The notes under the pieces are model-generated. The model ran no database searches, had not been told where the DNA came from, and saw only the letters and a list, made by a program, of their open reading frames with translations. Shown piece by piece: positions 7,031 through 24,816 of a stretch of DNA of 33,911 bases. Origin of the DNA: a virus; IMG/VR virus record IMGVR_UViG_3300017917_000386, positions 1 through 33,911 of that record; one strand, 5' to 3'. Position numbers and translations under genes: made by a program. How positions within the stretch are numbered: position 1 is the first letter of the stretch; every line of letters starts with the position of its first letter.

Positions 7031-7561
7031 TCATACAATGCGGGTAAACCAGCGTGGTGTTGTATATCTAATTCCCTCAGTAATTCCTCTTACACCATGT
7101 ATAAATTTTGGATTGTCTGGAAAAGTCAAAAGATCTCCAGGCTCAGGCTTAAAAGAAATGTTGTACTCTGGAAAATATATGTCTCCACCAACATAATCAT
7201 CGTTTAAATATACAAGGGTTGCAATATCATTTGGTCTTCCTGAATCAAAATGCTCGTGCATTCCATTTCCTGGAACAAACTTTGCGATATGTGTTTTAAA
7301 TGGATAGAACTCTTGGAATGGCCCTGGATAATTCTCAACTACATAGTCATAAACTCTTTTTGCATATGACTGCATCAATTCTAAAATATCTTTGCTATTT
7401 GATTCAATGCCGTGGTATGTATGTACTGTAAACTCTTTTTCTCCATTGCCAAATTCTTTAAAGCAATCCGTGTATTCTTTTGCGTAGTCAGATATGGTTT
7501 TAGCATCTTCCTTAGACATAAAAGATTTTACATACTTAATCTGTGAAATATATTCGTTCAT
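7031..7561 (-). CDS. 2-oxoglutarate/Fe(II) dioxygenase, prolyl-4-hydroxylase-like
   Basis: The 176-residue protein has the complete catalytic signature of the 2OG-Fe(II) oxygenase superfamily: the iron ligands His104 and Asp106 (HEHFD), a YVGGDIYFPEY strand pair, the distal iron ligand His155 (KFIHGV) and Arg165 (IRYTTPRWF), which binds the 2OG carboxylate. This short single-domain form resembles prolyl-4-hydroxylase-type enzymes, which hydroxylate protein side chains using O2 and 2OG. The ATG overlaps the stop of the upstream ribonucleotide reductase (TAATG), so it is coupled to that gene. Given the surrounding fibre genes, a virion protein substrate is plausible. The substrate is unknown. 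Confidence 0.85.
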   Translation of the reverse strand: MNEYISQIKYVKSFMSKEDAKTISDYAKEYTDCFKEFGNGEKEFTVHTYHGIESNSKDILELMQSYAKRVYDYVVENYPGPFQEFYPFKTHIAKFVPGNGMHEHFDSGRPNDIATLVYLNDDYVGGDIYFPEYNISFKPEPGDLLTFPDNPKFIHGVRGITEGIRYTTPRWFTRIV

Positions 7562-9591
7562 TATTTTACCTTAATCTCACAATAATCTGTTGTGCAGTAC
7601 ATCTCTCCCTGCGCTTCAAGATTATCTACTCCATCGTAAATAGCAGAAAAGTCGATATGGCCAATTCTTCCAATATAATAGTCATACTCTTCTTCTGTAA
7701 TCTGAGTATAAGGTTGCTGTGGGTATGTAGTATTTCCCATTGGAAGGAATGAGACGGCCTTTAACTGTCCTTCATACATATGCAATGCAGGAACTATATG
7801 CTTTGACTCTGTCTCTTTATCAAAAGATAGCGTTACAGATACCCCATTATCCGACCAATATTTTTGAGCAGTTGCTGCAAGCGCAATCTTTTCAAAAAGA
7901 GTTACATCTTTTTCAGAACGTGGATGCCCAGACTTAATTGGGAAATATACAACAGATGTATTTGCCGACACTACATCATCTTCAATTTTATACCCTGCTG
8001 CTTTAAATAAATGAAGCATAGGATCAGTATTTCCAAAACGAATTGCACGAAGGAAAAAGTTTCCTCCAGGCCCCCAGTGAACCCCAGGAGTTGCACCAGA
8101 AAGAATTGAAACAGATCCAGATGGCTTAACTGTTGTTACACGAATTGATTCACGAACACAAAGCCATTCTGAATATTGGTGATCATATTTACGAATTGTA
8201 TTATATCCTTCATCCATCCATTCACGAACAATTGGCAATCCGTTTTGATCTGCAAAAGATGCAATACCTGTTAGAGATGTTCCAATTCTTCTATTTCTTT
8301 GCATAATGCCATTTGTTTGTTGCCAATGTGTTGGAACTAGAGTAACTGTCTTTCCATAAAGGTAGGCAAACTTAAGAGTACGCAAAAAGTCTTCCTTGTC
8401 AGTATGACGATTTAAATGTACTTCAACTAAAGTACATAATTCATACGATTCTAATGGCTGCTCTGCACATGGATTAAATCCCATAACTCTATAGTCTTTA
8501 CCATCTGGCGCATCCTTAAGTCTGCCATAATTGCGGGCAACGTCTAACCAAATAAATCCAGGTTCTCCATTATCAGTAATTAAATCTACATAGTCTTCAT
8601 ACTTAGTTCCTACCTCTGCTGAGATAGAGTTATTAGACATCCAAGCCCATCCTGGATTTTCTGAGTCAAAAGAGTTTCTATCTGGAAATACCTCTGCATT
8701 TTTTAGATTAATAAAATCTTCGTCTCCTGCTGCACCCAGTGCAAGTGTTGCAGAGCGACGAACGTTTCCAGAAACAACACAGGTTCCAATAAGATTAACT
8801 ATGTCAACAATAGCCCTAGAATCCAGCGTTTGACCAGCCCTGCTGCCGATTACACGGTCTATCTGATCATGTAACTTGATAAGTGGTGCGGGACCAGAAG
8901 CAACGCCTCCAAAGCCCTTAATTGGTGCTCCCAAAGGTCTAATAAGATCGTAATTAAATTTTTGAATATTTTGATTTGCTCTAAGATATGAGTTAAGTAA
9001 AAGTCTTACAGACTCTACCCAGCCTTCACGAGTATCTGGAATTTCATAAATATTTTCTGGCTCAGTTGGAGCATAGATTTGAAAATTCTTTTCCTGACCA
9101 ACGGTATCAAACCCTACACCTATGCCAAGCATCAATGCGTCCATAACCCATGCAAATAGTGCTCCTGGATCATTCTTATCTAAATCTTTTGTCGAAACCA
9201 TTGCACAATTTTGTAGTGCTGCAGAATTTCTTTTTTCCATTGTCATTGGTGTTCCGAATGCCCACATGCCACGTCCTGGCGGAGTCCACTTAAGATTAAA
9301 CATTCTATCGAATGCTTCTTGTGCTGACTTTTGAGCCTTATAATCATTCCATGGAAGACGGTTTTCTTTAGCATGATTCTTTTGTACTGAGTACATACCC
9401 TCAATTACACGACGACATACTTCATGCCAGCGTTCTTTTGTACCATCTTCTTTCATTCTTGAATATGTTCTGATGAAGGTGATTTCTCCCAAAGAGTTTT
9501 CTCCAGCATCTGCAAATCCGAATGGAGGAGTTGTCTTTACGTACTTCTCTACAAAGTCCTCTGGTAATCTAAAAGAAAAAAAATCTGACAT
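7561..9591 (-). CDS. nrdJ: Class II (adenosylcobalamin-dependent) ribonucleoside-triphosphate reductase, monomeric type
   Basis: The 676-residue enzyme makes deoxyribonucleotides for phage replication using coenzyme B12 and needs no oxygen or metal cofactor. Key residues are visible: Cys129 (LQNCAMV) and Cys386 (ELCTL) form the active-site disulfide pair, and the NPCAEQ loop holds Asn373, the thiyl-radical Cys375 and Glu377. Cys375 and Cys386 are 11 apart, as in the Lactobacillus leichmannii enzyme (408/419). The C-terminal swinging pair Cys666 and Cys671 (CTTDYC) keeps the C-x4-C spacing. It is somewhat shorter than that enzyme (739 aa). I chose the ATG at 9591, with AAAGGTG 7 nt upstream, over an in-frame GTG at 9600. 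It lies among late-type genes rather than with replication genes, and it has its own promoter. Confidence 0.92.
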   Translation of the reverse strand: MSDFFSFRLPEDFVEKYVKTTPPFGFADAGENSLGEITFIRTYSRMKEDGTKERWHEVCRRVIEGMYSVQKNHAKENRLPWNDYKAQKSAQEAFDRMFNLKWTPPGRGMWAFGTPMTMEKRNSAALQNCAMVSTKDLDKNDPGALFAWVMDALMLGIGVGFDTVGQEKNFQIYAPTEPENIYEIPDTREGWVESVRLLLNSYLRANQNIQKFNYDLIRPLGAPIKGFGGVASGPAPLIKLHDQIDRVIGSRAGQTLDSRAIVDIVNLIGTCVVSGNVRRSATLALGAAGDEDFINLKNAEVFPDRNSFDSENPGWAWMSNNSISAEVGTKYEDYVDLITDNGEPGFIWLDVARNYGRLKDAPDGKDYRVMGFNPCAEQPLESYELCTLVEVHLNRHTDKEDFLRTLKFAYLYGKTVTLVPTHWQQTNGIMQRNRRIGTSLTGIASFADQNGLPIVREWMDEGYNTIRKYDHQYSEWLCVRESIRVTTVKPSGSVSILSGATPGVHWGPGGNFFLRAIRFGNTDPMLHLFKAAGYKIEDDVVSANTSVVYFPIKSGHPRSEKDVTLFEKIALAATAQKYWSDNGVSVTLSFDKETESKHIVPALHMYEGQLKAVSFLPMGNTTYPQQPYTQITEEEYDYYIGRIGHIDFSAIYDGVDNLEAQGEMYCTTDYCEIKVK

Positions 9592-9624
9592 ATAAAACAC
9601 CTTTCAAAATTGGAATAGATAGCA

Positions 9625-9809: not shown

Positions 9810-10442
9810 TCAAAGTAGTGGCATCCAGTGCTGTTCTTTATCGTGCATAATAGAACTTAATGGTGAAATATCATAAGCAATTGTTATTCGTTTAAATGGC
9901 TGATCCCAATTGTTAATTCCATGTGGATGACCAGTTTCAGATAAAATAGCACGATTATTTACGTTATTATTTATAAAATATTGTCCATCTATTCCACCAA
10001 TTTTATACTTTGTATAGGATGGCTCTGCTGCTACGCAATAGTAGCCATGAAAATCAGGAGTCCCTTGTCCAGTTAGATGATCGTGTAAAAATTCATCTGG
10101 TAGTGGCTCTGGCTTTTTATAATTGTCAAAATTAAACCATCCTTGAATCATATATTGTTGTTTATCAAAATCAATACTGTAATACTCACATGCTTCATGA
10201 ACCATAGACTTTACCTGAACTAATAGATTATAAATGTATGGATTATGAAATTGAAAAATATTATATTTTGGACCAAGATTGGTAATTGGAGCAATACCCT
10301 TTAAAGATTTAAAATCCTCAACAGAGATATTTGGAACATTGCCATTCTCAAGATCCTTGGCTCTTTGTGCTAAAAACCTTGTAAGATCCTCAAGATCATT
10401 GTCTAAAAATCTTTCAAAAAATTTATGATTTGGCTTGTTCAT
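9810..10442 (-). CDS. Putative 2OG-Fe(II) oxygenase, tandem paralogue B
   Basis: The 210-residue protein is clearly homologous to the gene just upstream (10439-11095); shared blocks are HKFFERFLDNDL at the start, FQFH, QGWFN, FHGYYCV.AEPS, NRA(I/V)LSE.GHPH, RITIAYD and EQHW(M/I)PL at the end. The arrangement of His residues (LHDHLTG, then GHPHG, then an Arg in KRITIAYD) suggests the double-stranded beta-helix of 2OG oxygenases, but the iron ligands are less certain than in the 7031 gene. I chose the ATG at 10442 because it overlaps the upstream stop as ATGA; a longer frame starts at 10457. It is probably a duplicated modification enzyme. Confidence 0.65.
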   Translation of the reverse strand: MNKPNHKFFERFLDNDLEDLTRFLAQRAKDLENGNVPNISVEDFKSLKGIAPITNLGPKYNIFQFHNPYIYNLLVQVKSMVHEACEYYSIDFDKQQYMIQGWFNFDNYKKPEPLPDEFLHDHLTGQGTPDFHGYYCVAAEPSYTKYKIGGIDGQYFINNNVNNRAILSETGHPHGINNWDQPFKRITIAYDISPLSSIMHDKEQHWMPLL

Positions 10443-11095
10443 ACTAGAGGAATCCAATGCTGTTCTTGATGCATACCAAATTTTTGAAGATCTTTTAGTG
10501 GTATAACATCATAGGCTACTGTGATTCTTGGACCTTCCCAATCCCAGTCTGCTTGAGCATGTGGGTGTCCCATTTCAGAAAGAACTGCACGATTGTCTAT
10601 ATTATTATTTACAGTTTCCTTATCAAATACCTTATAGTAAGTTACAGATGGCTCAGCCTTTACGCAGTAGTAACCGTGAAAATTTGGGGCACCAAATGGA
10701 CCATGATCATGCCAATCTAACTTACCCTTTTTAGCATAGTTAATATTAAACCATCCCTGAACCATAAACTGTTGCGAATCAAAGTCTAGGCCATAGTAGT
10801 CACAGGCTTCTCGTACCATTGAGGCAACGTTCTTATACAAAGAGTGAATACCTTCAATATGAAATTGAAATACATTGTACTCTCTCCACTTCATTGTGGA
10901 TACGCTGTTAGAAGATTTCCAGAGTTCGTCATCTTTTACTTCTGTAACCCCAAGAACTTCTGCACGTTCAATTTTTTGATATCTAACATCTAGTTCTTTT
11001 GCAAGTTTTGCCAAGTCATTATCTAAAAATCTTTCAAAAAACTTGTGTGGCTGTTTTGACTGACTTACGCTTTTTATGTCTTGTGGATAATTCAT
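10439..11095 (-). CDS. Putative 2OG-Fe(II) oxygenase, tandem paralogue A
   Basis: The 218-residue protein is the first of a tandem duplicated pair. The likely catalytic core runs from DWHDHGPFGAPNFHGYYCV (residues ~122-140) through GHPHAQADW to PRITVAYDV, with conserved His, Asp and Arg in the order expected of a 2OG-Fe(II) oxygenase. The end EQHWIPLV is shared with its paralogue. The ATG at 11095 has GGGGAGAAAG upstream and an extended -10 (TGATATAAT on minus) at 11115-11123, so this pair may be its own transcription unit. The substrate is unknown. Confidence 0.65.
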   Translation of the reverse strand: MNYPQDIKSVSQSKQPHKFFERFLDNDLAKLAKELDVRYQKIERAEVLGVTEVKDDELWKSSNSVSTMKWREYNVFQFHIEGIHSLYKNVASMVREACDYYGLDFDSQQFMVQGWFNINYAKKGKLDWHDHGPFGAPNFHGYYCVKAEPSVTYYKVFDKETVNNNIDNRAVLSEMGHPHAQADWDWEGPRITVAYDVIPLKDLQKFGMHQEQHWIPLV

Positions 11096-11114: not shown

Positions 11115-11123
11115 ATTATATCA
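11115..11123 (-). promoter_or_regulatory. Extended -10 promoter for the tandem oxygenase pair
   Basis: The minus strand reads TGATATAAT, a perfect extended -10, about 20 nt before the ATG at 11095 and overlapping the end of the upstream hydroxylase gene. There is no obvious -35. Confidence 0.45.
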
Positions 11124-11688
11124 TAAACTCATTTGGCATAATATCTATAATTAAATGTACCCTATCTATATCAGTTGGATTTTCTACAGAATGGGGCATT
11201 GCGTTATTAATTTCATAACATATGCCCTCTTTCATATTTATTGAGTCTTTATTTACATTAAAAATAACACCATCAGTAGTTATAATTGGGATGTGAACCC
11301 TTCTAGCAAAATATAATATGTCTCCCCCATCAATATGTTTATTAATTTTAGTATGATTAGACATTTTTATTAATTCAGATCCAACAACTTTTCCATTATA
11401 TAAAGACTCTAGGGTAGAATAAATATTTTCTAGTTCTAGTTGAGACATTTTGTTTTTAAATATATTCCTAGTTTCAAATTTAACCCTGTCTCCTGGCAAC
11501 CATTCATAATCAAGATATACTAGAGAGTAGCAAAATGTTTTTTTATGAACTTTATAAGACTCTTGTCTTGATGTATCCATAAACCACTCATCATCAAACA
11601 ATTCTACTTCTTTTTTAATATTTTCTATTTTTACATTATCTATTTTTTTTATGCCCCAGGTGCTATTCTTTTTTTCTTGCATAATCAT
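11116..11688 (-). CDS. Aspartyl/asparaginyl beta-hydroxylase-like protein
   Basis: The 190-residue protein has the motif order of the Asp/Asn beta-hydroxylase branch of Fe(II)/2OG oxygenases: His118 with Asp120 (NKHIDGG), Arg129/Arg130 and His132 (RRVHIPI), His166 (MPHSVENP) and Arg176 (DRVHLIID). Family members hydroxylate Asp or Asn side chains or act on small peptides. The start (ATG 11688, GGAG 4 nt upstream; alternative ATG 11682) lies inside the end of the sulfotransferase gene, so the two genes overlap by about 26 nt and are probably co-translated. Codons here are even more AT-rich than in the neighbours, like those of the sulfotransferase, which hints that the two were acquired together. 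Confidence 0.8.
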   Translation of the reverse strand: MIMQEKKNSTWGIKKIDNVKIENIKKEVELFDDEWFMDTSRQESYKVHKKTFCYSLVYLDYEWLPGDRVKFETRNIFKNKMSQLELENIYSTLESLYNGKVVGSELIKMSNHTKINKHIDGGDILYFARRVHIPIITTDGVIFNVNKDSINMKEGICYEINNAMPHSVENPTDIDRVHLIIDIMPNEFMI

Positions 11689-12352
11689 ACAACTCCATAT
11701 CTAAAGCATTTATATGTTCTATTCTAGCATACTGTTTTTTGTTTAATTTAATCTCAAACTGTTCTGATTCGTTAATCTTAGAGTAATGCTTAAAATTATT
11801 AACCTGTAATATTTGACAAATATTTTTAGTTAATAATTCAATGTTGTTCATAGTAAAAATATGATTATTATCTATTACAGATTTTGCCTTTTTAACATCT
11901 ATATTATTTGAAACTATAAACCAATTATTTACTACTTTATCTTTTATATTAGAACCATTATATTTTTTTAAATCTATATGATTTAAAATAAATTTAATTT
12001 GAGAATTTATATGTTTATCATAAAAATTTTCATCGTATAGCCACATATCTAACAATTCTTTTTCTGTCATGTTGTTAAAAAAATCTCTTGTATATTTTAT
12101 ATAACTAATATATCTGTCTACTGGATTCCTCAATACAGAAAATAATAGTGGATTGTTCATATATCCTAAGGGAGTGGTCCCAAAATGCCCAGAAACAAAA
12201 TAGCACTTTTCTATTTCTTTTAAGTTTATATCTTTATAATGTGTTGCAAAAACATGTTTATCTTTAAATTCATGCAACATATGATTTTTTATAAAAATAC
12301 CAGACGTTCTTGGAATATGAAGATGATACACACTGTCATAGTTATTTAACAT
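11663..12352 (-). CDS. Sulfotransferase-like protein (PAPS-dependent family)
   Basis: The 229-residue protein has both nucleotide-binding signatures of PAPS-dependent sulfotransferases: HIPRTSG at residues 12-18 (the 5'-phosphosulfate loop, equivalent to HIPKTGG) and LRNPVDRYISY at 74-84 (the 3'-phosphate loop, with Arg75 and Ser83). A GHFG motif at 55-58 is also typical of the heparan/chondroitin-type family. It would transfer sulfate from PAPS to a sugar or tyrosine hydroxyl. It overlaps the hydroxylase that follows. Base composition is extremely AT-rich, unlike the fibre genes upstream, suggesting recent transfer. No Shine-Dalgarno precedes the ATG. No PAPS-synthesis gene is in the window, so the host would supply the donor. 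Confidence 0.78.
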   Translation of the reverse strand: MLNNYDSVYHLHIPRTSGIFIKNHMLHEFKDKHVFATHYKDINLKEIEKCYFVSGHFGTTPLGYMNNPLLFSVLRNPVDRYISYIKYTRDFFNNMTEKELLDMWLYDENFYDKHINSQIKFILNHIDLKKYNGSNIKDKVVNNWFIVSNNIDVKKAKSVIDNNHIFTMNNIELLTKNICQILQVNNFKHYSKINESEQFEIKLNKKQYARIEHINALDMELYDYARKKE

Positions 12353-12395: not shown

Positions 12396-13637
12396 TTAAA
12401 TATCTTCAACATCAACGTTGCGTGTATTAAATCTGTCTTTAATATTATGAACTAAAAAGTTTGCAGCAACAAGTAAATCTATTGGTTCGGCATTAAAACG
12501 ATACACCGTTCTTTCCTCATCAATAAGATTTATTGATACAATAGGAACCTCAATAAAGGTTTTATCTGGCTGTAATTCTATAAGAATATCTCCAACCTCT
12601 AAGAGACCGCTTGTTATAAAGGAATAAGTTCCATTTCTTTTACACATAATGTTTTCTTCAAGAGAGAATCTTTTTCCTGTATCGCCATTAATATACATTG
12701 TTGTTTGTTTTAATGTTGGGAAAATTCCCATAATTGATGTTTTTTCTGATTGAATATTTGTAAGTGTTGGGCTTTCGAATACTGATGGGTTAGTAGAATC
12801 TTCGTCTATATACTCATCAAAAGTTGCTGCCCAAACTTCATCTCCAGCATTAATGGCTTTAGCCATTTTATACTCAATTGTATCGTTTGGTCCAACTACT
12901 GCAACAAGGGTATCTTGATCAATACATCCTCCTCCTGGAGAGAAACCAAACACTGAGAATGGAGAGAATCCGAATACACCAAATGGAGAGAATCCGAATA
13001 CACCAAATGGAGAGAATCCGAATACACCAAATGGTGCAAATGAGAATGTTGTTGTAACTGATGATGAGTCTGATGACCATGAAGAGTTTCCATTAGCATT
13101 TGTTGCATAAACACGATATGTCTGTGCAGTTCCTGCTTCTTGGTCTACCGTTACAGATGTGCCAGCAGTATCTCCTGACTTACCATCATTTGACTCCCAG
13201 TGATAGTTTGTAATTGCTTTTCCACCATTTGCTGGTTGTGACCAAGAAACAACGTCTTGGTTAGCATTTGGAGATGAAGCGCTTGGTGCAGATGGTGTTG
13301 CTGGAACTGTTGTAGCAGTTACAGAAGAAGATGCTGTTGAGTATGAAGAATCTCCAACTGCATTTGTTGCTTTAACCTGAAACGTATATGCTACATCAGA
13401 TGAAAGTCCTGTTACGGTAATTGGAGAAGATGACCCAGTTGCTGTATGGCTACCGCTTGAAAGAACGGTATAACTTGTTGCTGCTGGTGAATCTGTTGGC
13501 AATGTAAAGGAGACAGTTACGGCACCATCGTTATATGGTCTATTAGTTCCTACATCTGATGCAGAATCAATGGTTGGTGCCATTGGTTCTAAAAAGTCAT
13601 TTGCTGACTGTGAGTGTCTACCTGCTTTTTTTGACAT
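12396..13637 (-). CDS. FN3-FN3-octapeptide repeat-Hint domain virion protein
   Basis: The 413-residue protein is built in modules. Residues ~19-112 and ~113-198 are two fibronectin type III-like domains (AVTVSFTLPTDSPAATSYTV, SWSQPANGGKAITNYHW, YRVYATNANGNSSWS). Residues 199-234 are aromatic octapeptide repeats of the form FGVFGFSP. Residues 238-398 form a Hint (hedgehog/intein) domain starting Cys-Ile-Asp and ending LVHN, and a 15-residue tail follows. FN3 domains are common in phage tail proteins. The Hint domain could cut the chain or join it to another molecule. The ATG at 13637 has GGAGACAG upstream. It lies directly downstream of a fibre gene in the same orientation. The product is probably a displayed, self-processing fibre accessory. 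Confidence 0.8.
   Translation of the reverse strand: MSKKAGRHSQSANDFLEPMAPTIDSASDVGTNRPYNDGAVTVSFTLPTDSPAATSYTVLSSGSHTATGSSSPITVTGLSSDVAYTFQVKATNAVGDSSYSTASSSVTATTVPATPSAPSASSPNANQDVVSWSQPANGGKAITNYHWESNDGKSGDTAGTSVTVDQEAGTAQTYRVYATNANGNSSWSSDSSSVTTTFSFAPFGVFGFSPFGVFGFSPFGVFGFSPFSVFGFSPGGGCIDQDTLVAVVGPNDTIEYKMAKAINAGDEVWAATFDEYIDEDSTNPSVFESPTLTNIQSEKTSIMGIFPTLKQTTMYINGDTGKRFSLEENIMCKRNGTYSFITSGLLEVGDILIELQPDKTFIEVPIVSINLIDEERTVYRFNAEPIDLLVAANFLVHNIKDRFNTRNVDVEDI
12444..12926 (-). other. Hint (intein/hedgehog-like) domain, mini form without homing endonuclease
   Basis: 161 residues run from Cys238 to Asn398. The N-terminal block (CIDQDTLVAVV, then AINAGDEVWA) and the C-terminal block (TVYRFN, then ANFLVHN) fit Hint domains well, including the penultimate His397 and terminal Asn398. 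The block-B Thr-x-x-His is not preserved: the equivalent stretch reads RFSLEENI. The residue after Asn is Ile, not Cys/Ser/Thr, so ordinary protein splicing is not expected. Cleavage, as in bacterial intein-like domains, is the more likely outcome. Confidence 0.7.
12936..13043 (-). repeat. In-frame 24-bp tandem repeats coding for FGVFGFSP
   Basis: Four octapeptide units plus a partial one (FSFAP, FGVFGFSP three times, FSVFGFSP). The central units are nearly identical at DNA level, which implies recent expansion by slippage or recombination. A related repeat is encoded at 21987-22082 in a different gene. Confidence 0.85.
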
Positions 13638-13662: not shown

Positions 13663-15207
13663 TTAAGCCTTAAGATCGCCGTATACAACCCAAGAGTTTT
13701 CTGCTCTCTTGAATAATGTACATGATGACCATTGTGTACGTAATTTTAATCCTGGGGTAGCATTTACAGTTACTCCAGTATCTCCTGCTATTGTAATTAA
13801 ACCTGTATTGACTCCAAGAATATCAAGAGTAGTTCCAATTGGGAAGGCTACTGCTGAATTTGTTGGAATTGTAATTGTTACTGCTGAAGAGGAATCAACT
13901 TCAATTAATGAATCTCTTTCAGATAATGCTGAAAGTGTGTAGTTAGAAGTCTTTGAAATAATTGGAGTTCTTGAAGGAACTCCTTCTTTTGTCTGTGTTC
14001 CGTCTGAGAATACTACTCCAGATGCTGTTAAATTATTTACAGCAAGGTCATCTAGTGAACCCTCAGTAAAGTCTACAGTTGTTGTTGGTTCTGTTGTTAC
14101 ACCTTTAAATAATTTCCATTTATCAGTAGAAACATCTCTTACGATACCTGCATGTTTTGTTGTACCGTCATTATATGCTACGACAAGACCAAGGTCAACT
14201 GTATTTGCTGAATTTTGATGAGCAAGTTGAACCATATTATCTTCGATTGTAATGGTTGTTGCAGATGCTGCAAAGTTAGTACCATTTACAGTAAAGTCAC
14301 CATCAACTGTTAAATCTCCATCAAGAGTTACTGATGATGCGTCCATCATAACAATCTTTGATGTATCCGCAATACCGTGTACGCTTGTAGTATCTGAATT
14401 ATGGTCAGAAATATCGGAAGGTGTTGCTTTAGCGTCTAACTGTGTTTGAATTGCAGATGTCACACCATTAACATATGTTAGATCTGTCATATTTAATGAT
14501 ACTGGAAGTCCTCCCACTGTAACATTAACGCTTGGATCATTAATTGTTTTATTAGAAAGAGTTTCAGTTCCAGTAAGCGTTACTAGTGCTGCTGTATCAG
14601 AAATACCGTGTACGTTTGTGCTATCAGATGAGTGATCAGATACTAATCCTTCTGCATATGTCTTAGTTGACAATGCTGCTGTATCTGTAATACCGTGCAC
14701 ATTTGTGGTATCAGAATTGTGTGTTCCAACAATGATATCAATTGCTGGGTCTAGTGCTACTGTAGTAACATATCCCTCTAACACAGTATCAAGTGCGGTT
14801 GTGTCTATAAGATTTAATGTATTTGCAATTCCATGAACATTTGTTGAAGCCTCAGCGTGATCATTTAATAGACCAAGCATATCTGAAATTTCTTTCAATG
14901 TATCTAATGCTTCTGGAGCACCATCAATTAAGTTTGAAAGTTGAGAAACTGGAATATGTCCATTTGAGTCAAGCGTGGCTACTCCACCATTTGTTCCTTT
15001 TTGTGTTAGTGGTACATAATCGTCAAGTGTTCCACCAAGGTCTTCTAAATTCTTAAAGTAGGAGAGGTCTGACCAGTTGTTTACACCATCGCCGATTTTG
15101 AACTGGCTGGTATCTGATTCAAAACCAATTTCTCCTGCTGCTAAAATTGGATCTGCTGTAGTCCATTGTTCTGCAGTTCCTCTGCGTTGTTGCATTCTTG
15201 TTGCCAT
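13663..15207 (-). CDS. Tail fibre protein with Mtd-like N-terminal domain
   Basis: The 514-residue protein begins with a segment typical of the N-terminal domain shared by the major tropism determinant and many fibre proteins (QRRGTAEQWTT, ILAAGEIGFESDT, FKIGDGVNNWSDL, residues ~7-50), which attaches fibres to the tail. The middle holds four copies of a His/Asp repeat such as HNSDTTNVHGI. The last ~95 residues are a beta-rich module (from SNYTLSALSERDS to SWVVYGDLKA) that recurs at the end of the 22321 gene. The ATG at 15207 has GGAGGAG upstream, a leader with an ATGGG/CCCAT inverted repeat at 15222-15236 and an extended -10 at 15248-15256. It is likely a receptor-binding or fibre-shaft protein. 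No diversity-generating retroelement is visible. Confidence 0.82.
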   Translation of the reverse strand: MATRMQQRRGTAEQWTTADPILAAGEIGFESDTSQFKIGDGVNNWSDLSYFKNLEDLGGTLDDYVPLTQKGTNGGVATLDSNGHIPVSQLSNLIDGAPEALDTLKEISDMLGLLNDHAEASTNVHGIANTLNLIDTTALDTVLEGYVTTVALDPAIDIIVGTHNSDTTNVHGITDTAALSTKTYAEGLVSDHSSDSTNVHGISDTAALVTLTGTETLSNKTINDPSVNVTVGGLPVSLNMTDLTYVNGVTSAIQTQLDAKATPSDISDHNSDTTSVHGIADTSKIVMMDASSVTLDGDLTVDGDFTVNGTNFAASATTITIEDNMVQLAHQNSANTVDLGLVVAYNDGTTKHAGIVRDVSTDKWKLFKGVTTEPTTTVDFTEGSLDDLAVNNLTASGVVFSDGTQTKEGVPSRTPIISKTSNYTLSALSERDSLIEVDSSSAVTITIPTNSAVAFPIGTTLDILGVNTGLITIAGDTGVTVNATPGLKLRTQWSSCTLFKRAENSWVVYGDLKA

Positions 15208-20855: not shown

Positions 20856-21419
20856 TTAAAACCAAGTAGATAACTGATATTTGGTTCCAGAAAGAACTGG
20901 CTTCTCTACCAGACCATAAACATAGTTTGATGGATATATGAGAAGTTGGTTCTTTTTTGGTTTAATGGTGACATCAAATCTTGGAAAGTATATTTCTCCA
21001 CCTTCATAGTTATCATTAATAAAATACTTTAGTGAAACCCTTTTAAACTTGTTTCCAATAATATCTTCATGATAATATCTTTCTTGATCACTCTGAAGAT
21101 ATCTAAAAAATACAAAAAGATCAAAGTCCTCAAACGTTATATAATTATTTTTAGCATAGTCTTTAGATTTTTCTAAAAATATCGAATTTGCCATATTAGA
21201 TATGGTATGCAAAAGTATATCTCCGCCATCTTCTTCATTAATCTTTTTTACCTTATTAAAATTTACAATACCAAAGTGTTCCATAGTCTTTATCGCATCA
21301 GATGATAGTTTCCACTGAATTAGCGAATGAGGCAGTTCAGAGATATCGTTCATATCTGCAATTGTGCTTTCAAGATCTACATCTAAATCATATAAATGTA
21401 TTGCTGGAAAAATTTCCAT
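20856..21419 (-). CDS. 2OG-Fe(II) oxygenase-like protein with substituted active-site residues
   Basis: The 187-residue protein resembles the 7031 enzyme in the core: His117 and Asp119 (YYHEDIIG), YEGGEIYFPRF, KPKKNQLLIYPS and a final KYQLSTWF. Two expected catalytic positions differ: the distal iron-binding His is Tyr168 (VYGLV) and the 2OG-binding Arg is Lys180. Lys can bind 2OG in some relatives, but Tyr is not a usual iron ligand here, so it may be inactive or use another residue. I chose the ATG at 21419 because it overlaps the zinc-ribbon stop (TAATG) with GAGGGG 8 nt upstream; longer frames begin at 21425 and 21440. Confidence 0.7.
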   Translation of the reverse strand: MEIFPAIHLYDLDVDLESTIADMNDISELPHSLIQWKLSSDAIKTMEHFGIVNFNKVKKINEEDGGDILLHTISNMANSIFLEKSKDYAKNNYITFEDFDLFVFFRYLQSDQERYYHEDIIGNKFKRVSLKYFINDNYEGGEIYFPRFDVTIKPKKNQLLIYPSNYVYGLVEKPVLSGTKYQLSTWF

Positions 21420-21619
21420 TACCATTTCCCCTCTGGACAAGTTGCATCTTCTAATTTAGTTTTTAATTGCATAAAGCATCCACATTTTTTACATTGATTA
21501 CTTAATTTTATCAGACTTGGACATGATTTGCAAATCTCAAATCGCTCATTGGCAAGACTTTCTAAAGATCTTTTTTTATTAGGATTCAGCAAGTCCCAAG
21601 GCTTTACACTTTTTGACAT
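21419..21619 (-). CDS. Small zinc-ribbon protein, copy 1 (DUF6171-like)
   Basis: The 66-residue protein has five cysteines, four in two CxxC knuckles (CKSC and CKKC) plus a later CP. The end CGCFMQLKTKLEDATCPEGKW is nearly the same as that of the 26718 gene (CGCFMKLKSTLKQASCPIGKW). Such miniature zinc ribbons occur in many aquatic phages; no function is established that I know of. It is coupled by TAATG to the oxygenase-like gene downstream. Confidence 0.78.
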   Translation of the reverse strand: MSKSVKPWDLLNPNKKRSLESLANERFEICKSCPSLIKLSNQCKKCGCFMQLKTKLEDATCPEGKW

Positions 21620-21848: not shown

Positions 21849-22310
21849 TTAACCTGGACATCTACAACATCTATAGTTTGTTGGACATCCACCACAAAGA
21901 GAGCAGGCAGCGCTATTTGCACCTGGACCACCACAAAGATTTGCACAACTGACAGAACTTGGACCAACTGCGTAGTAGTATCCAGATGGTACAAAACTAA
22001 ATACAGAAAATGGCGTAAAGGTAAATACGCTAAATGGAGTAAAGCCAAATACTGAAAATGGAGTAAAAGAAAAAACATAAGATACATATGAGACATTTGA
22101 TTCATAGTCAACTAGGGTATCTGCAACTGGTGATTGACTTTTAACCTTTGTTCCAAGATTTGAGTCTCCAGTATTTTCTGTTGTATTACCAGTATTAGTT
22201 AGATGTGCACTTGTTAAATCTGTTGTTGCCTCAGTTGTAGTTTTTCCAACAATGTTAGGAACTTTAATCATTCCTTTTAGAGCAGATACTATGCCAGTTA
22301 TCCAAAGCAT
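21849..22310 (-). CDS. PASTA-octapeptide repeat-cysteine-rich protein
   Basis: The 153-residue protein has three modules. Residues ~15-75 look like a PASTA domain (VPNIVGKTTTEATTDL, then TKVKSQSPVADTLVDYESNV), a fold known for binding peptidoglycan and related beta-lactams. Residues 77-108 are aromatic octapeptide repeats (FSVFGFTP, FSVFTFTP, FSVFSFVP) like those of the FN3-Hint protein. Residues 122-151 hold eight cysteines (SCANLCGG, ACSLCGGC, CCRCPG) that could bind metal or form disulfides. GGGGGAAT precedes the ATG at 22310. It is probably a virion surface protein contacting the host cell wall. It shares its design of Ig-like or PASTA domain, octarepeat and special C-terminus with the 12396 gene. 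Confidence 0.75.
   Translation of the reverse strand: MLWITGIVSALKGMIKVPNIVGKTTTEATTDLTSAHLTNTGNTTENTGDSNLGTKVKSQSPVADTLVDYESNVSYVSYVFSFTPFSVFGFTPFSVFTFTPFSVFSFVPSGYYYAVGPSSVSCANLCGGPGANSAACSLCGGCPTNYRCCRCPG
21987..22082 (-). repeat. In-frame octapeptide repeats of the F-x-V-F-x-F-x-P type
   Basis: Four 24-nt units code for YVFSFTP, FSVFGFTP, FSVFTFTP and FSVFSFVP. They are more diverged at DNA level than the 12936-13043 repeats, with the same amino-acid pattern. Confidence 0.8.
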
Positions 22311-24090: not shown

Positions 24091-24804
24091 TTACATAACA
24101 GAAACATAGATAGATTTGATTTGAGCCATAGAGTCCATGTCTGTCCTAAGTTGTGGAACTACCCCACTGACCCTGTTTAGTTCTTTATCAATATAAAAGT
24201 TATGCGTTGTACTTAAGTCATAGGTGTACTGATATTTGAGTGAGGCTACAAAAGATACTACCTCATCTTGGCTATCTGGAAAATACGATCTAGCCCATAC
24301 CTCAGTATTATTAGAAAATGTCGTTATGTTAAAGTTATAAACTACTTGAACCTGAGTTCCAACATTTAGGTGTTTGAAGTTCAATCTTCTCGTTTCGGCA
24401 TTATAAAGGCTTGTATCGTTTTCTGGCAAAAATAATTCTATGGTATTTTTTCCAAGACCATCTACGTGAAAAGATACCCACCCATCATCTCCACTATCTA
24501 CGCCAAGTTTAAATGTTAGTAGATTTAGATTATCGTAATTTGCCCATCCTATTTTTTGTCCATAGATTGGCGTTGATGACTTTCCCTCTGGCCCCTGTGG
24601 CCCTGGCAAACCTTGTGGACCAGTTTCACCTCTTGGCCCTTTGGGTCCTGCCAAACCATCCTTTCCTGGGCTTCCAGGGGGTCCCTGAGGGCCTGGAACA
24701 GGAATGTAGGATATGGAGTTAGCCGAACCAGTTTCTTGTGATTGTTTAACCTGTTTAGCATAACTGCTTTCACCTGGAAAGTTCATGCTTTTAGAAACTG
24801 CCAT
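24091..24804 (-). CDS. Collagen-like fibre protein
   Basis: The 237-residue protein has an N-terminal ~37-residue segment, then twelve uninterrupted Gly-X-Y triplets (residues ~38-74, beginning [14 protein letters not shown]), enough for a short collagen-like triple helix. A C-terminal beta-rich domain with Trp/Asp-rich strands ([22 protein letters not shown]) follows. Proline occurs in the Y position in at least three triplets (GPP, GSP, GLP) and lysine in one (GPK), the positions hydroxylated in animal collagen. Collagen-like phage proteins usually form trimeric fibre stalks. I chose the second of two adjacent ATGs (24804) because GGAGG is only 1 nt from the first. Confidence 0.85.
24583..24695 (-). 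repeat. Gly-X-Y collagen-like tract
   Basis: Twelve consecutive codon triplets begin with glycine, with Pro dominant at X and Pro, Gln, Lys, Arg, Asp, Thr, Ala and Glu at Y. Confidence 0.85.
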
Positions 24805-24816
24805 CATTCCTCCAGA

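Follow-up and report, generated by a model that had tools for sequence, protein, structure and literature searches.

The minus-strand gene at 12396–13637 of the analysed window, a stretch of viral DNA of 33,911 nucleotides, encodes a protein of 413 residues whose C-terminal domain is, on the predicted structure, a genuine Hint fold, with evidence well past chance. The same FN3-repeat-Hint design recurs in dozens of uncultured phages. Across this family, the position-1 nucleophile is kept while the remaining catalytic residues drift.

Domain organization and the Hint fold

The open reading frame is real, as a sequence-only reading of the window had proposed without giving its strand, and its product comprises an N-terminal motif, two FN3 domains, an aromatic octarepeat, a Hint domain and a short tail. 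The pair of FN3 domains, also claimed in that reading, was recovered by Pfam (fn3, E 5e-9, in two stretches) and in the full-length model, at residues ~22–108 (13314–13574, minus strand) and ~112–197 (13047–13304, minus strand). The aromatic octapeptide repeats were likewise located, at residues 198–235 (12933–13046, minus strand), on the basis of the sequence and the model; they read FSFAPFGV FGFSPFGV FGFSPFGV FGFSPFSV FGFSP, with PFGVFGFS as the unit. The DNA of two neighbouring units is identical, as expected from tandem duplication. Modelled as a single chain, the octarepeat has a pLDDT below 50; in the full-length model the FN3-FN3 and Hint parts are ordered, and the repeat and the tail are of low confidence. 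The Hint domain spans Cys238–Asn398 (12444–12926, minus strand). The 15 residues past Asn398 (12399–12443, minus strand) are predicted from the sequence and the full-length model to be disordered, and this tail is too short for an extein domain.

None of the Pfam, NCBIfam or PHROGs models recognizes the C-terminal part above its cutoff; Intein_splicing stays below it at E 0.04. The sequence-only reading thus picked up a domain missed by routine annotation. When a profile built from 19 relatives was compared with the PDB, it matched the RadA intein (E 2.4e-6) and a BIL domain (E 4.3e-6). The structure prediction proposed in the earlier reading gave a Hint fold, with an AlphaFold2 model of pLDDT 91. 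VIA-align placed this model closest to Tetrahymena BIL2 (6y75; Z 18.5, 2.1 Å over 140 residues), followed by the Mtu RecA intein (Z 18.1), the Clostridium thermocellum BIL (2lwy; Z 17.0) and hedgehog (1at0; Z 16.8), and Foldseek also groups it with BIL, intein and hedgehog structures. Profile, model and structural matches together place the domain in the HINT superfamily by fold, and the Pfam matches, the full-length model and the Hint profile bear out the FN3-repeat-Hint architecture as a whole.

Active site of the window copy

The domain begins with Cys238 (codon 12924–12926, minus strand), which provides the position-1 Cys/Ser of block A that is characteristic of the superfamily. It ends in block G with His397-Asn398 (12444–12449, minus strand, from the sequence and the alignment), followed by Ile399. 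The Cys238 start, the Asn398 end, the penultimate His397 and the following Ile in place of Cys/Ser/Thr had all been noted before and hold. The earlier reading had also reported the block-B His missing; the alignment puts Glu328 at its position, so that Ser325-Leu-Glu-Glu328 (12654–12665, minus strand) stands where T/S-x-x-H is usual. With Ile at +1 and 15 residues left in place of a C-extein, the copy departs from a canonical class 1 intein, and standard splicing, which had been judged unlikely, is ruled out. The B-type BIL pattern, with intein motifs minus the C-terminal one, does not describe it either, as His-Asn is kept and the block-B His is absent. A Hog-Hint would carry a sterol-recognition region past the Hint domain, where this protein has just its short tail. 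His397-Asn398-Ile399 does agree with the A-type BIL definition of a terminal His-Asn with a non-nucleophilic +1 residue (PMC7765530, PMC7664689).

A block-B T/S-x-x-H is typical, not obligatory. A few inteins without the His are active (PMC7664689, PMC6333167), and natural inteins of this kind splice in some cases via compensatory residues (PMC7664689). With Gly at −1, the Ssp DnaB intein cannot do without its block-B His: once this is lost, the N-S acyl shift no longer occurs, and compensation comes only from bulkier residues at −1 (PMC6333167). Such compensation was rejected for the window copy, in which the −1 residue is Gly237. Because Ssp DnaB loses its first step with such a pairing (PMC6333167), that of Glu328 and Gly237 would be unfavourable for the first acyl shift, and by this analogy the activity of the window copy is uncertain. 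Relatives with Gln at block B mostly have Gly at −1 as well, and the bulky −1 compensation is therefore inapplicable to most of them (PMC6333167).

A modular family in uncultured phages

The earlier reading had suggested looking for the same architecture in other phages, and it was found in many uncultured ones. It was the octarepeat query of viral contigs that brought the family to light, with 116 relatives, of which 80 were kept. The alignment of 19 rows proved too diverse to yield a search pattern, and a closer set was used for the Hint-subset search, which yielded 44 loci, partly on the same contigs as the octarepeat relatives. Single-sequence searches gave no match to the whole protein in named phages and no close relative of the Hint domain alone among viral contigs; weak matches to S-PM2 were judged to be chance. 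Scans of 84,980 bacterial and archaeal genomes with the short conserved octarepeat and Hint-subset patterns found no relative, leaving a cellular origin or prophage link unsupported by these scans.

The parsed relatives are modular, joining an N-module (FN3-FN3 or PASTA) through a tandem-repeat linker to a C-module, which may be Hint, Cys-rich, thrombospondin-like or FNFAPWG. Their linker repeats are wholly unlike one another (PFGVFGFS, PPGFFA, PPFFPPYFP, TIN, NTQ, TP, VTP). The N-terminal motif SKKAGRxSQxANDFLxP is common to Hint-bearing and Hint-less versions, and certain octarepeat proteins whose N-terminus is similar lack the Hint domain and end in FNFAPWG instead. The wider group can thus do without the Hint module.

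A Hint domain occurs in 31 of the 36 records searched, and 14 of the 36 hold two. In the cases read, the second Hint protein is mostly of the PASTA type and lies about 8–11 kb away. Where both domains of one phage were read, they are often alike in catalytic type: Ser/His/His-Asp in both in two phages (L083/L136, L055/L137), Cys/Glu without His-Asn in three (L014/L072, L017-type/L140, L020-type/L141), and Cys/His/His-Asn in three (L025/L074, L079/L138, L076/L139). The PASTA partners of the Gln group (L130–L134) have His at block B. Several PASTA-type Hint proteins (L130–L134, L136, L138, L139) have extreme short-repeat linkers (TINTIN, NTQNTQ, TPTPTP, VTPVTP), with Cys-rich modules interspersed among the short tandem repeats. 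Additionally, a very divergent FN3-aromatic-repeat protein (L135, an open reading frame from base 778 on the plus strand, and L118, near its 3' end) has a Hint-like C-terminus that keeps Cys1 and lacks the terminal His-Asn; the same phage has an 885-residue Hint protein.

Hint domains at the C-terminus of phage tail proteins are already in databases, in phage NCTB and in UniProt entries from uncultured phages, some under the name 'Hint domain containing protein'. The NCTB proteins BN7874_132 and BN7874_136 ('intein domain') resemble the window protein in being tail proteins with a C-terminal Hint domain, there placed after a glycine run, with Cys1 and a His-Asn close to the C-terminus. However, they have the block-B His (TxxH), lack the FN3-octarepeat part and are distant in sequence. 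The nearest structural matches in BFVD are the uncultured Caudovirales proteins A0A6J5MFV5 (E 1e-20) and A0A6J5NY54 (E 7e-15), whose Hint domains share 41% and 28% identity, respectively, with that of the window. They were deposited as 'Fibronectin type III' and 'PASTA', names taken from the N-terminal domain only. In the library searched, no paper was found on the Hint domains of these phage tail proteins (NCTB, A0A6J5MFV5, A0A6J5NY54), and the mentions of Hint that it found in phage genome papers concerned inteins of terminase, reductase or helicase genes, none in fibres. As far as we searched, the present Hint family, with its modular repeat stalks and graded active site, is undescribed.

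Conservation and selection

Residues were counted over 52 non-redundant Hint domains in an alignment of 159 columns. Position 1, the 8th most conserved column, is Cys in 43 and Ser in 9, and thus a nucleophile in all 52. The block-B position is divided among His (28), Glu (12) and Gln (12). The penultimate residue, the 7th most conserved column, is His in 44, Tyr in 6 and Phe in 1, and the last residue is Asn in 37, Asp in 9 and another residue in 5; several clades have Asp, His, Gly, Pro or Ser in place of the terminal Asn. Among the domains ending in His-Asn, the +1 residue is never Cys/Ser/Thr, and no more than 15 residues, in some as few as one, come after the Asn. On a tree of the 52 rows built with the catalytic columns left out, there is one change between Cys and Ser at position 1, against at least four between His and non-His at block B and at least five at the terminal residue.

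The dN/dS values (NG86, unreliable for pairs with dS near zero) are ~0.07–0.25 for most pairs in every class, including the types without the block-B His or the terminal His-Asn, and reach ~0.46 in the Ser class. Being well below 1, they led us to reject decay into pseudogenes. Low dN/dS and the residue counts indicate that the domain is maintained and that the position-1 nucleophile is the strictest of the catalytic sites, with the penultimate His kept almost as strictly. The invariant Cys/Ser under purifying selection argues for the importance of position-1 chemistry to the family. Since the nucleophile is invariant, no cis acceptor is present and the C-terminal machinery is variable, the sequence pattern fits selection for N-terminal (thio)ester chemistry, BIL-like or hedgehog-like, rather than for splicing.

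Genomic context

The fibre setting proposed earlier is borne out by the gene upstream, which encodes an Mtd_N tail-fibre protein (13663–15207, minus strand; Pfam Mtd_N E 9e-12), and relatives keep this gene order. A fibre-like open reading frame lies directly upstream of the Hint gene in 10 of 10 relative loci examined. Six were tested by Pfam, with four matching Mtd_N, one collagen-like, and one without a match that has the same C-terminal 'GDL' ending; the remaining four were judged by eye to have an Mtd_N-like start. A companion PASTA-octarepeat protein with a Cys-rich tail is encoded at 21849–22310 (minus strand; Pfam PASTA E 1e-6), and in related phages this companion often ends in a Hint domain or a thrombospondin-like module. 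The same structural cassette holds a collagen-repeat protein (24091–24807, minus strand; PF01391, E 4e-7).

Downstream of the Hint gene, several loci carry sulfotransferase-like or hydroxylase/oxygenase-like genes. The window has a sulfotransferase-like gene at 11663–12352 and, amid the fibre genes, 2OG-Fe(II) oxygenase or Asp/Asn-hydroxylase genes (PF13640, PF05118) at 7031–7561, 11116–11688 and 20856–21440 (minus strand), which suggests that enzymes modify the fibre proteins. Near the oxygenase/hydroxylase genes, 9810–10457 and 10439–11095 encode two similar-looking proteins without a Pfam match. A B12-dependent (class II-like) ribonucleotide reductase gene at 7561–9600 (minus strand) is flanked by structural genes. 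The nearest named portal proteins are those of Streptomyces phages (46–48% identity), a hint only that the host may be actinobacterial.

Proposed role and alternative explanations

We tentatively propose, as the likeliest reading though one that falls a little short of probable, one-step self-processing. The protein would belong to the virion of an uncultured phage, in association with the tail fibre; it runs from a conserved N-terminus through the FN3-FN3 body and the repeat stalk to the Hint domain at its C-terminus, which would act without splicing. Cys238 would attack the Gly237-Cys238 bond to form a thioester, and the FN3-octarepeat part would then be freed from the Hint domain via hydrolysis or by an outside nucleophile. 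With Glu in place of the block-B His, the window copy may cleave slowly. The presence of the N-terminal motif in Hint-less versions too suggests that the protein is anchored to the virion by its N-terminus, with the Hint domain distal. We infer this virion location and orientation, and likewise thioester formation and cleavage. In fold, Cys1 and setting in variable proteins, the domain resembles BIL domains; it differs in lying in a phage fibre-type protein with a repeat stalk and almost without a C-flanking domain, in having Glu for the block-B His, and in that cleavage is putative here.

A credible but more doubtful explanation is that the Hint domain is catalytically silent in the window and other Glu/Gln copies, serving as a structural cap, folding nucleus or binding tip. 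The repeated changes at block B and at the terminal residue under continued purifying selection would suit such a role, as would a Gly at −1 that offers no compensation and the ability of other C-terminal modules to take the place of the Hint domain. However, position 1 is Cys or Ser in every copy, and a swap between these two conserves chemistry but not obviously packing. The retained His397-Asn398 and the strictness of the penultimate His would accord with C-terminal cleavage alone, in which Asn398 would cyclize as in an A-type BIL and the last 15 residues be trimmed. Nevertheless, the short tails of the His-Asn group and the replacement of Asn in several clades make a general need for such cleavage unlikely, and we regard this explanation as very improbable.

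Transfer in the manner of hedgehog or thioester adhesins, in which the Cys238 thioester would be attacked by a nucleophile (amine, hydroxyl or thiol) of the host surface or of another virion protein and the FN3-stalk thereby covalently joined to it, is also unlikely. The domain is close in fold to that of hedgehog, in which it likewise ends a displayed protein without a splice partner; there is no C-terminal extein to act as a cis acyl acceptor, the gene lies among fibre genes, and the Cys-rich tail of the PASTA-octarepeat companion is a conceivable acceptor. Yet neither a conserved acceptor nor a region resembling one for sterol recognition was found, the window copy differs from Hog-Hints in lacking the latter as well as the block-B His, and transfer here is putative. 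The bolder idea that the terminal Hint domain presents the stalk as an activated (thio)ester that bonds covalently to a nucleophile of the host surface or virion is decidedly improbable. Ser-type Hint domains, present in both FN3-type and PASTA-type proteins of two phages, would use oxyesters.

Phage Hint domains are usually reported as inteins within enzymes, terminases and reductases among them. What recurs here, across many uncultured phages, is a BIL-like Hint domain at the C-terminus of tail-fibre-type proteins. Should this domain cleave or transfer, it would represent an unrecognized step of fibre maturation or covalent attachment, and its natural Cys/Ser, His/Gln/Glu and Asn/Asp variants would serve for probing minimal Hint catalysis. 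If it is silent, a domain of the self-processing kind would have been put to new use as a structural tip.
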